Shown here: positions 27,340-31,056 of the stretch, in pieces
How the letters are laid out: each line of letters opens with the position of its first letter
How positions within the stretch are numbered: position 1 is the first letter of the stretch
Source of the DNA: Flavobacteriales bacterium
GTDB taxonomy: Bacteria > Bacteroidota > Bacteroidia > Flavobacteriales_C > GCA-002722245
NCBI GenBank assembly: GCA_029251005.1
Contig: JAQXEE010000063.1
Location: 1 to 35,909, forward strand
Direction of reading: 5' to 3'
DNA length: 35,909 nucleotides
Position numbers and translations under genes: made by a program
Notes under the pieces: generated by a model
Database searches by the model: none
Told to the model about the DNA's origin: nothing
What the model saw: the letters and a program-made list of their open reading frames with translations, nothing else

Positions 27340-28611
27340 ATGCTTCAAGTAAAATATATTCTTGACAATAAAGAAAAAGTTATTGAAGGTCTAAAAAAAA
27401 GAAACCTAGATTCAGATCCACTTATTCAAGAAATCATTGAACTAAACATTAAAAGAAAAGATCGTATTTCTAAAGTTGAAATACTACGTGCTGAAGGGAA
27501 TAAAATGTCCAAAGCTATTGGTGATTTATTCAAAAAAGGAAAAAATGAAGAAGCAAACGAAGCGAAATCAAAAGTACAAGCTATAAAAGGAGAACAAAAA
27601 TCTCTTGAAGATGGACTGCATGAAATAGAAAATAAATTTACAGACTTATTATACCATATTCCTAACGTTCCGCATGAAACAGTTCCAACAGGAAAATTAG
27701 AAGAAGACAATGTAGAAATTTTTAGGGAAGGTGATATTCCTAATCTGCATGAAAGCGCTAAACCCCACTGGGATATCGTTAAAGAGAAAGACATTATTGA
27801 TTTTGAAACTGGTGTTAAAATAGCTGGAGCAGGTTTTCCTATTTACAAAGGAAAAGGTGCGCGTTTACAACGTGCCTTAATTAACTTCTTTTTAGACGAA
27901 GCTGATAACTCAGGTTACCATGAAGTAATTCCTCCATTATTAATTAACGAAGCTTCAGGGATCGGAACGGGTCAATTACCCGATAAAGAAGGTCAAATGT
28001 ACCATACTGTTGCTGATGACTTATATTTAATTCCTACTGCAGAGGTTCCTGTAACAAACATTTATCGTGACGTAATTTTATCAGATGATGAATTACCTAA
28101 GAAGCACACCGCTTATACTCCGTGTTTTAGAAGAGAAGCAGGTTCTTATGGAAAAGATGTTAGAGGATTAAACAGGCTACACCAATTTGATAAAGTTGAG
28201 ATTGTTCAGGTTGTTCACCCTGATAATAGTTATGCTGTATTAGATGAAATGGTTGACCATGTAAAAGGTTTGGTTAGAAAACTAGGACTTCCATTTAGAA
28301 TTTTAAGATTGTGTGGTGGAGATTTAGGGTTCACTGCTGCCTTAACATTTGATTTTGAAGTTTATTCAACTGCTCAAGATAGATGGTTAGAAGTTAGTTC
28401 CGTTTCAAATTTCGAAACTTACCAAAGTAATCGACTAAAATTAAGATTCAGACAAGGTAAAGACAAACCTCAATTAGCACATACTTTAAATGGAAGTGCA
28501 TTGGCATTACCAAGAATAATGGCTGCATTAATAGAAAACAATCAAAATGAAAAAGGAGAGGTTTTAATACCTGAAGTACTTCAAAAATATACAGGATTCG
28601 ACAAGATGTAA
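27340..28611 (+). CDS. serS: Seryl-tRNA synthetase
   Basis: The protein has 423 residues. The N-terminal long coiled-coil arm that binds the tRNA-Ser variable loop covers about 30-105. The class II catalytic core has the TAEVP serine site (233-237), motif 2 FRREAGSYGKD (263-273) and the C-terminal NGSALALPRIMAALIENNQ motif 3. It charges tRNA-Ser and tRNA-Sec. It is a single transcription unit between the rpmA terminator and its own terminator at 28632; a TATATTTA box (27314-27321) lies 18 bases before the ATG. Confidence 0.97.
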   Translation: MLQVKYILDNKEKVIEGLKKRNLDSDPLIQEIIELNIKRKDRISKVEILRAEGNKMSKAIGDLFKKGKNEEANEAKSKVQAIKGEQKSLEDGLHEIENKFTDLLYHIPNVPHETVPTGKLEEDNVEIFREGDIPNLHESAKPHWDIVKEKDIIDFETGVKIAGAGFPIYKGKGARLQRALINFFLDEADNSGYHEVIPPLLINEASGIGTGQLPDKEGQMYHTVADDLYLIPTAEVPVTNIYRDVILSDDELPKKHTAYTPCFRREAGSYGKDVRGLNRLHQFDKVEIVQVVHPDNSYAVLDEMVDHVKGLVRKLGLPFRILRLCGGDLGFTAALTFDFEVYSTAQDRWLEVSSVSNFETYQSNRLKLRFRQGKDKPQLAHTLNGSALALPRIMAALIENNQNEKGEVLIPEVLQKYTGFDKM

Positions 28612-28631
28612 TTTTGTACTTTTTTTAAACA

Positions 28632-28662
28632 AAAGGGCTGAACATAATATTCAGCCCTTTTT
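28632..28662 (+). terminator. Intrinsic terminator after serS
   Basis: A perfect 11-bp stem (AAAGGGCTGAA / TTCAGCCCTTT) around a 7-base loop runs into TTTTT, 21 bases after the stop. Confidence 0.93.
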
Positions 28663-28770
28663 CATTTTATGTTCGTAAATCTTATTTACAGTCCTTGAAA
28701 TTTTCATATCCTACTTTGTAACCTAAAACAACTTTTACGAATACTAACTAAAAAGGAATCGCCGTTAAAA

Positions 28771-28806
28771 AATGTTAACACTTTAACATTCGAACATTTT
28801 AACGTT
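28771..28806. promoter_or_regulatory. Repeat-rich control site before the two-component operon
   Basis: AATGTTAA (28771-28778) and TTAACATT (28783-28790) form a perfect inverted repeat around CACT. TTAACATT, CGAACATT and TTAACGTT then follow head to tail with an 8-base period (28783-28806). The block ends 11 bases before the kinase GTG, overlapping the likely promoter (TACATTTA at 28806-28813). It is a likely operator; an autoregulating RprY is the natural candidate. Confidence 0.55.
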
Positions 28807-28817
28807 ACATTTAAATT

Positions 28818-30365
28818 GTGAAAGAAAATCACTTAAAAATATTAGTATCAGTTATGACGGCTGCATTACTGGGGATAATTGTCGTACAAGGCTATTGGCT
28901 AAACAGTGCGATCGAACTAAAGGAACAACAATTCAAAGAAAGTGTAATGCATGCAATGAGTGTTTCCGTTCAGCGATTAGAGCGCCTAGAAAAAAGATCA
29001 CTTTACAATAATATTCAACAAGCCCAACCTGTTATTAAGCCATTTTCTATAAAAACCCATACTTCAATAGATACTAATTTAAACTCAAAAAATTATTCAT
29101 TCGAACTAGAGGAAGAAAGTGTTTTTGAAACAGCTGAAGGAAAACTAATAAAAAAAACAACACAAATCCTGAAGGATGCAAATGGTAGTATAATTCAAAA
29201 ATCGTACAATACTATTAAATCAAAAAACAGAAGAAATGTTTATAATGACCCTTCAAAAAACACGATATTTAAAAATATTATCCAAGACCTAACAAGTTTC
29301 GGCAGACCAAAAGGAATTACCGAAAGAGTTGACCCTCACCTTTTAAGTAAACTTTTAAAGAAAGAACTTAAAAACCATGGAATCAATACTAAATTTCAAA
29401 TTGGTCTATTCTCAAACAATAACCTCGTCTTAAAAGAAAAAGGTGTTGAAACAGCACAATTTATGAACTCCCCCTACTCTATTCAGCTTTTCCCTAGTGA
29501 TTTCTTTTTCAGCAGAGACCATTTAAGCATTATTTTTCCTAAAGAACGTGGATTCTTAATCAAATCAGTTGGTGACGTCATCGCATTGTCATCTGTATTT
29601 ATTTTAACCATTGTAATTGTATTTTGGATTACTTTTGCCACTGTTGTTCGTCAGAAAAAAGTAGCTGTTATTAAGTCTGACTTCATAAACAATATGACAC
29701 ACGAGTTAAAAACTCCTATTTCTACGATATCCCTAGCTTGTGAAGTTTTGAATGATCAAGAAATCCCTAAAACACAAGAAAGAACTTTGCATTACGTTGA
29801 TGTAATTAACTCAGAAAACAAACGATTAGAGACATTAGTTGAAAATGTCCTACAAAGCGCTGTATTAGATAAAGATGATTTTAAACTTAAATTTCATGAA
29901 ATTAATACTCAAGATGTAATAAATCATGCTTGCAACCAAGCCAAGGTAAGAGTAGAAGGAAAAAACGGAAACATAACTACACTCTTCAATGCTCAAACAT
30001 CAATTATTATAGCTGACAAAATACACTTTACCAACATCATCAATAACCTTCTTGATAATGCTATAAAATATACACCGGTAACTCCATCAATTATAATTTC
30101 AACTCGAAATTTAAACAATGGAATTGTGATTGATGTTACAGATAATGGAATTGGAATAACGAAAGAAAATACAAGTAAAATATTTGATAAACTATATAGA
30201 GTTCCTACCGGAAACGTCCATGACGTTAAAGGATTTGGATTAGGTTTGAGCTATGTTAAGGCTATTGTTGACAAGCACCAGGGATCCATCAAAGTAACAA
30301 GCCAAATAGGAAAAGGATCTGTATTTAGTATTTATTTACCTTTTAAACCAAACGAAGATGAGTAA
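28818..30365 (+). CDS. Sensor histidine kinase, RprX-like
   Basis: The protein has 515 residues from a GTG start. Transmembrane helix 1 is about 8-28, an extracytoplasmic sensor region about 30-248 follows, helix 2 is about 251-275, and there is no clear HAMP. The HisKA box MTHELKTP holds His295; the HATPase_c part has the N box (NLLDNAIKYTP), G1 (DVTDNGIGI) and G2 (GFGLGLSYV). Length, order and the downstream regulator resemble Bacteroides RprX. The stop overlaps the regulator start by eight bases. The sensor domain gives no clue to the signal, and repeats just upstream suggest autoregulation. Confidence 0.88.
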   Translation: MKENHLKILVSVMTAALLGIIVVQGYWLNSAIELKEQQFKESVMHAMSVSVQRLERLEKRSLYNNIQQAQPVIKPFSIKTHTSIDTNLNSKNYSFELEEESVFETAEGKLIKKTTQILKDANGSIIQKSYNTIKSKNRRNVYNDPSKNTIFKNIIQDLTSFGRPKGITERVDPHLLSKLLKKELKNHGINTKFQIGLFSNNNLVLKEKGVETAQFMNSPYSIQLFPSDFFFSRDHLSIIFPKERGFLIKSVGDVIALSSVFILTIVIVFWITFATVVRQKKVAVIKSDFINNMTHELKTPISTISLACEVLNDQEIPKTQERTLHYVDVINSENKRLETLVENVLQSAVLDKDDFKLKFHEINTQDVINHACNQAKVRVEGKNGNITTLFNAQTSIIIADKIHFTNIINNLLDNAIKYTPVTPSIIISTRNLNNGIVIDVTDNGIGITKENTSKIFDKLYRVPTGNVHDVKGFGLGLSYVKAIVDKHQGSIKVTSQIGKGSVFSIYLPFKPNEDE

Positions 30366-31056
30366 CAATATAAAAATATTATTAGTTGAAGACGACGCTA
30401 ACCTAGGATCTTTACTACAGGAATACTTAATAGCAAAAGGATATGACTGTCAACTAGAAACGGATGGAGATAAAGGAATTAAAGCATTTTTAAAAAATGA
30501 ATTTGATCTTTGTGCACTGGATGTTATGATGCCGATTAAAGACGGATTTACACTTGCTAAAGAGATTAGAAACACGAATAAAGAAGTTCCTATTATCTTC
30601 CTTACAGCAAAGTCTTTAAAGGAAGATAAAATTGAAGGTTTTCAAAGTGGAGCTGACGATTACTTAACGAAGCCTTTTTCTATGGAAGAGTTATTGTTAA
30701 GGATAAAAGCAATCTTACGCAGAACAAATGGTGCCAGCACTGTAAAACAAGAGCTTAAATATTTTGAAATTGGTTCTCTTAGTTTTGATTACGATAGAAG
30801 AGTTTTAAAGGGGAAAGAAGATCCTGGTCAAAAATTAACAAGTAAGGAGGCTGATTTATTAAAGCTCTTGTGTGAAAACACGAATGATGTACTAGAACGT
30901 AATGTTGCACTAAATAAAATTTGGAAAGACGATAGCTACTTTAACGCAAGGTCAATGGATGTGTACATCACTAAACTTAGAAAGTACTTAAAAGCAGATC
31001 CAAAGCTTGAAATCGTAAACATGCATGGAAGAGGATTCAAATTGTTGACTAATTAA
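30358..31056 (+). CDS. OmpR-family response regulator, RprY-like
   Basis: The protein has 232 residues. The receiver domain (1-120) has acidic pocket Asp12/Asp13, phospho-acceptor Asp55 (ALDVMMP), Thr83 and Lys105. The C-terminal winged-helix DNA-binding domain (about 130-232) shows LTSKEADLLKLLCEN and the recognition region ARSMDVYITKLRKYLK. It closely resembles Bacteroides RprY as I recall it, and should be phosphorylated by the overlapping kinase. Targets are unknown; RprY of Bacteroides and Porphyromonas has been tied to oxidative stress and primary metabolism. Confidence 0.92.
   Translation: MSNNIKILLVEDDANLGSLLQEYLIAKGYDCQLETDGDKGIKAFLKNEFDLCALDVMMPIKDGFTLAKEIRNTNKEVPIIFLTAKSLKEDKIEGFQSGADDYLTKPFSMEELLLRIKAILRRTNGASTVKQELKYFEIGSLSFDYDRRVLKGKEDPGQKLTSKEADLLKLLCENTNDVLERNVALNKIWKDDSYFNARSMDVYITKLRKYLKADPKLEIVNMHGRGFKLLTN

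Follow-up and report, generated by a model that had tools for sequence, protein, structure and literature searches.

A conserved head-to-tail GTTAA box upstream of an RprXY-like two-component operon: a candidate autoregulatory site before a predicted leaderless promoter in Bacteroidota

The window, by which we mean the whole stretch of 35,909 nucleotides analysed here, comes from a genome of 2.9 Mb in 161 contigs whose named relatives are Bacteroidota. It carries a two-component operon of the OmpR/PhoB family, in which the kinase adjoins the regulator and the domains PF00072, PF00486, PF00512 and PF02518 all score above their cut-offs, the regulator gene overlapping the kinase gene by 8 nt. 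The upstream neighbour is serS, separated from the kinase gene by an intergenic region of 206 bases. The features of the locus are the following:

27340-28611: serS, the upstream neighbour of the kinase gene
28631-28661, + strand: inverted repeat I4 (15-nt arms, 93% complementary), a hairpin followed by a T run, 3' of serS
28764-28768, + strand: distal GTTAA half-site, predicted -54 to -50, assigned from the sequence and the conservation of the pair
28774-28778, + strand: proximal GTTAA half-site, predicted -44 to -40, ending 27 nt before the -7 box
28806-28813, + strand: TACATTTA, a Bacteroidota -7 box with A for the last G of TAnnTTTG, at fixed spacing in relatives
28818-30365, + strand: sensor histidine kinase gene, RprX-like (HisKA, HATPase_c), its GTG start being the predicted +1
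30358-31056, + strand: OmpR-family response regulator gene, RprY-like (Response_reg, Trans_reg_C)

Judged by eye, the hairpin behind serS is terminator-like, so that the two-component operon would need a promoter of its own. In 103 of 109 loci the regulator gene lies 3' of the kinase gene in the same orientation, while a SerS homologue was found in six of the 109 (within flanks of 1.5–3 kb), five of them from the genus of the window; on this comparison the adjacency of serS and the kinase gene is a local arrangement. An Rfam scan of the window returned no match at the gathering score, and the window contains neither tRNA nor tmRNA. Among the NCBIfam models listed for the regulator, the best is RprY (NF051850, an equivalog), with 338.1 bits where the cut-off is 370, and we therefore call the system RprXY-like. 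It shares with RprX/RprY of Bacteroides and Porphyromonas the order of a kinase followed by an OmpR-family regulator, and differs in that its regulator scores under the RprY cut-off.

For comparison, 110 kinase loci were gathered by similarity to the kinase of the window and start codons could be set in 101 of them (29 via a whole-genome search and 72 via genome contigs), leaving out eight loci whose match began beyond the first 25 residues or which had less than 100 nt upstream, and one (L039) which duplicated another (L012). It is evident in these 101 upstream regions how strongly two spacings of head-to-tail GTTAA words dominate, with 10 nt from start to start in 63 loci and 11 nt in 31, all other spacings from 6 to 17 nt occurring in two loci at most. 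A strict pair separated by five (N5) or six (N6) bases is present in 76 of the 101 loci (63 for N5 alone) and missing in 25, among which five loci of a sister genus retain the proximal GTTAA only. The reversed word AATTG never occurred at 10 or 11 nt in the same upstream regions, nor did a GTTAA pair at these spacings in the first 300 coding nucleotides of the 101 genes. Longer arrays are also found, and the successions of spacings include 10 (44 loci), 11 (13), 11-10-10 (10) and 11-10-11 (6). In the window the pair is of the N5 type, and its distal word is invariant in the five congeneric sequences aligned. Two relatives whose regulators pass the RprY cut-off, Marinifilum (381.9 bits, L061) and Draconibacterium (387.9 bits, L096), also have the N5 box. 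The half-sites are thus head to tail, 10–11 bp apart and upstream of a promoter, as in tandem boxes of the OmpR/PhoB type, and we regard the GTTAA box as a candidate box of this kind.

The position of the box relative to the promoter is fixed in most of these loci as well. The -7 box of the window, TACATTTA, agrees with the Bacteroidota sigma-A element TAnnTTTG at seven of eight positions, and differs from the usual sigma-A promoter in having no -33 TTG signal and a start codon close behind the -7 box. Of the 76 loci bearing the pair, 65 have a TAnnTTTR word that begins 26–29 nt beyond the final GTTAA (mean of 0.8 and maximum of 4 in shuffles). Some loci add another N6 half-site behind the last N5 pair, and there the pair-to-box distance grows to 38–39, one turn more. 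The -7 box ends 4–6 nt before the start codon in 54 of the 101 loci (shuffles: mean 0.7, maximum 4), this leaderless spacing being absent in the other 47. A TTG at the place expected for a -33 element was seen in 5 of the 54 loci against a shuffle mean of 6.7, so it is not enriched and a sigma-A -33 element was not recognised. The -7 box of Flavobacterium psychrophilum promoters spans -12 to -5 (PMC9723704), and transferring this geometry to the window places +1 on the G of the GTG at 28818, predicting a kinase mRNA that is apparently leaderless. Among loci of the same family, 10 of 10 have their GTG start at this position. In the sister genus, the five loci show (by eye) a GTTAA about 27–28 nt before the -7 box and a start codon 17–19 nt past it, which suggests that the position of the promoter has been kept there and the leaderless spacing has not. 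As a separate observation, for an mRNA predicted to be leaderless a GTG start is unusual, and an in-frame stop codon (TAA, 28812-28814) overlaps the -7 box. Leaderless messages reportedly amount to 5.5% of mRNAs in F. psychrophilum (PMC9723704), and about 3.7% of 5' UTRs are shorter than 10 nt in Bacteroides thetaiotaomicron, whose leaderless kinases include BT_3967 and BT_2166 (PMC7366714).

The original prediction had placed a regulator site directly 5' of the two-component operon, covering the promoter of a nearly leaderless mRNA. The candidate site is supported by the comparison, and so is the predicted short or missing leader, given both the spacing in the 54 relatives and the published position of the -7 box. 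The site does abut the core promoter, but the conserved box sits just upstream instead of covering it; the interval proposed (28771-28813) caught the second GTTAA and missed the first, and four bases lie between the -7 box and the GTG.

We consider the GTTAA pair to be the autoregulatory activator box of the RprXY-like operon, lying before a promoter that would give a leaderless kinase mRNA, and put the probability of this reading at roughly 70%. The OmpR/PhoB-family regulator encoded by the operon itself would bind, as a dimer, to the two head-to-tail GTTAA words, which are ten bases or about one turn apart, at around -54 to -40, directly upstream of a promoter with a -7 box and no recognisable -33 TTG. 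Going by the observed spacing and phase, the bound dimer would recruit RNA polymerase from a fixed phase, and transcription would begin with the G that opens the kinase's GTG codon. While the sequence, conservation, spacing and phase of the box could be read directly from the loci compared, the binding protein, the activation and the start site are what we infer from them, and positive autoregulation is simply the most economical sign to propose. The boxes of PhoB and CpxR of E. coli are tandem direct repeats, one helical turn apart and just upstream of the core promoter, a layout like that seen here, with half-site sequences that differ from GTTAA. A worked head-to-tail example is that of the enterobacterial PmrA (BasR), likewise an OmpR/PhoB-family regulator, which has six-base half-sites 5 bp apart, or 4 bp in a second box, with a TTAA core and periods of 11 and 10 (PMC3973317). 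There the half-site begins with C or T, whereas here it begins with G, and the regulator, the host phylum and the sigma factor are others; a further difference is the constant spacing here between the box and a -7 box with a near-leaderless start. No binding motif for RprY is given in the available portions of PMC3646045, PMC6032018 and PMC5706477, and the 2007 paper by Duran-Pinedo et al. may hold one; a GTTAA box for rprX/rprY was not described anywhere in the literature searched, outside which most subscription papers fall.

The box might instead be the site of another regulator, such as the one of a paralogous system, or a single regulator might serve both promoters, since the paralogues also use the GTTAA half-site. 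Paralogous kinases of about 420 aa form a separate clade (support 1.0) in a tree containing 99 of the 101 kinases of the RprX set and 29 of 30 paralogues, one paralogue (L304) being truncated and having only 21 nt upstream. Among the best 30 paralogue loci (L276-L305), 13 have GTTAA-N6-GTTAA before their own gene, often as GTTAATGAnnTGTTAA, and several show a similar promoter geometry. The N5 pair was found in none of these 30 (including the one with just 21 nt upstream), whereas in the RprX set 56 loci have N5 and 20 have N6 as their proximal pair (Fisher p 4e-7). A further control with 32 paralogue regions (700–1050 nt, both strands) gave a pair in 15, each of them N6; these regions are second-best kinase matches, a few of which (e.g., L229 or L258) have the length of RprX, and as the larger regions were mostly chosen for having a match, the figure that we rely on is the 13 of 30 from the similarity search. 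Another kinase clade also uses GTTAA at N6, and on the kinase tree the 75 box-bearing loci of the RprX set require a single change between N5 and N6, shuffled assignments needing at least 13 (mean 17). The N6 pairs of the paralogues and this single change indicate that the half-site is common to related systems, with the spacing as a trait of the clade.

Residues R198, D201, V202, R208 and K209 of the DNA-binding domain are identical in 103 of 103 regulators encoded behind the kinase genes, which speaks for the operon's own regulator. The core of the recognition helix is common to both regulator sets, which would favour another regulator or a shared one. At position 196, adjacent to the recognition helix, the regulators carry N at 52 of the 56 N5 loci and T at 15 of the 17 N6 loci; in the paralogue regulators this position is mixed (L, T or K), so the residue pattern is not cleanly transferred to them. 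Against regulation by the paralogous system stand the lack of N5 pairs in its 30 loci and the paralogue in the genome of the window (on contig C109), which has no strict pair although the box in the window is intact. Regulation of the window operon by its paralogue, or by one protein for both, hence seems unlikely, and the operon's own regulator remains our preferred candidate for binding the box. The block of N6 loci within the RprX set (L109, L111, L112 and L116, among others) includes Flavobacterium and Salegentibacter, and the two of its regulators that were tested score about 283 bits with the RprY model; this block is possibly a second paralogue and not an orthologue. A broader picture, which we offer tentatively and hold to be rather doubtful, is that related two-component systems of Bacteroidota share the GTTAA half-site and are separated mainly by its spacing (10 bp in the clade of the window, 11 bp in two others), all of them driving activator-dependent promoters that have no -33 element and give leaderless or nearly leaderless mRNAs.

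The specificity of the arrangement was assessed with the composite pattern GTTAA-N5-GTTAA-N26..29-TAnnTTTR. It has a single match in the genome of the window, at the window itself, and one match in each of four congeners, likewise before the kinase gene. Over 60 genomes there were 54 matches against 19 for a mirrored control, 26 of them preceding an RprX-like kinase by coordinates (including one, G032:C73, placed by coordinates only, with no open frame longer than 50 aa starting right after it), and the other 28 do not greatly exceed the control. Away from RprX-like kinases the matches mostly precede genes of varied kinds, many of them encoding signal peptides as judged by eye, and no recurring function was seen among the genes behind them. 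The four-copy array (11-10-10) was found once in each of 26 out of 296 genomes, with none for the mirrored control, and 23 of these 26 lie directly before an RprX-like kinase. Of the three others (L176, L177 and L180), L177 has its four-copy array and a -7 box before a small secreted-looking protein.

The bare pair GTTAA-N5-GTTAA is not enriched in the genome of the window (21 matches against 37 for the mirrored control); nine of the 21 were scored inside ORFs, and the one in the window is alone in having a -7 box at an offset of 27. A large regulon was set aside on account of these counts. We also considered nqrA, which is a reported target of RprY in Porphyromonas gingivalis (PMC5706477). 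A strict pair does lie just 5' of nqrA in the genome of the window (G000:C77:4520-4534; L127, L332), with a -7 box at 17 and not 27 nt, and this pair is broken in the nearest relative. As it was present at 1 of 23 nqrA loci (three of which have a misplaced start, so that their upstream was partly scanned), we rejected nqrA as a shared target and gave the site no weight. Several nqrA loci (among L316, L319 and L329-L333) carry an inverted repeat close to TTTAGAA-N4-TTCTAAA upstream, a possible different operator.

It had first been proposed that the regulator reads an array of 8-base words, repeated in tandem and as an inverted repeat over 28771-28806 and covering the promoter. The elements concerned are these:

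28771-28778: AATGTTAA, the first word, which contains the proximal GTTAA
28779-28782: CACT, between the first two words
28783-28790: TTAACATT, the second 8-mer
28791-28798: CGAACATT, the third 8-mer
28799-28806: TTAACGTT, the fourth 8-mer
28775-28806, + strand: TTAACACT TTAACATT CGAACATT TTAACGTT, four 8-mers in register
28771-28790, unstranded: inverted repeat of AATGTTAA and TTAACATT, with 8-base arms

The words are all where they had been placed; the register of the direct repeat starts one unit earlier, with TTAACACT at 28775-28782, so the array has four 8-mers. Over these 32 nt, period 8 gives 18 matches in 24 positions. None of 2000 dinucleotide-shuffled versions of the intergenic region reached this score at that period, and 76 of 2000 did when some period from 4 to 12 was accepted. 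For the best stretch of 24 nt (13 of 16), 32 of 5000 shuffles do as well at period 8, and 1162 of 5000 do so once all periods from 4 to 12 are admitted, so that period 8 is notable mainly if it was picked beforehand. The two TTAAC words (28783-28787 and 28799-28803), which are GTTAA words inverted, and the inverted repeat, with a longer loop, persist in the nearest species (kinase 94% identical), where an inserted base disrupts the 8-base register. By eye, the inverted repeat is missing from the next three congeners, where the array is gone as well: within the final 60 nt, the best period-8 score over 32 nt is 18 for the window, against 14, 13, 10 and 9 for four congeners. The 101 relatives have no spacing class of TTAAC words either, these being 8 nt apart in two loci and 16 nt in two. 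Finally, the two-unit pattern TTAACNNTTTAACNNT has eight matches in the genome of the window against two for its mirrored control, seven of which fall inside ORFs, the sole intergenic one being that of the window.

An 8-base operator as a conserved unit was rejected on these grounds, and that the regulator reads it at all we hold to be very unlikely. The conservation in relatives that had been suggested as a check is found, on a wide scale, for GTTAA-N5-GTTAA with its 10-base period, while the 8-base period and the inverted repeat are common to the closest species only. The 8-base repeat is a local by-product, and its TTAAC-bearing 8-mers are, on the alignments, inverted half-sites that arose recently and that only the nearest species has in common with the window. 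The extra TTAAC words (28783 and 28799) may act as weak sites or give weak negative feedback, or they may have no function, the one observation in favour of a function being their persistence in a single close species. It is likewise very unlikely that the GTTAA words are an UP-like contact for the alpha subunit of RNA polymerase and not a regulator box. UP-element geometry does agree with the position (-54 to -40), the A-rich linker and the one-turn spacing, but four-copy arrays extend further upstream, the composite occurs once in the genome of the window and not at many promoters, and the spacing goes with the kinase clade, having changed once on the tree.

In a transposon screen of Bacteroides fragilis, rprX/rprY was the only two-component system that proved essential (PMC4072883). 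A precise and widely conserved candidate box with a fixed promoter geometry would make the targets of the regulator and its autoregulation directly testable, and would do the same for the question of how a leaderless GUG mRNA is translated where, as in this phylum, Shine-Dalgarno sequences are not used.
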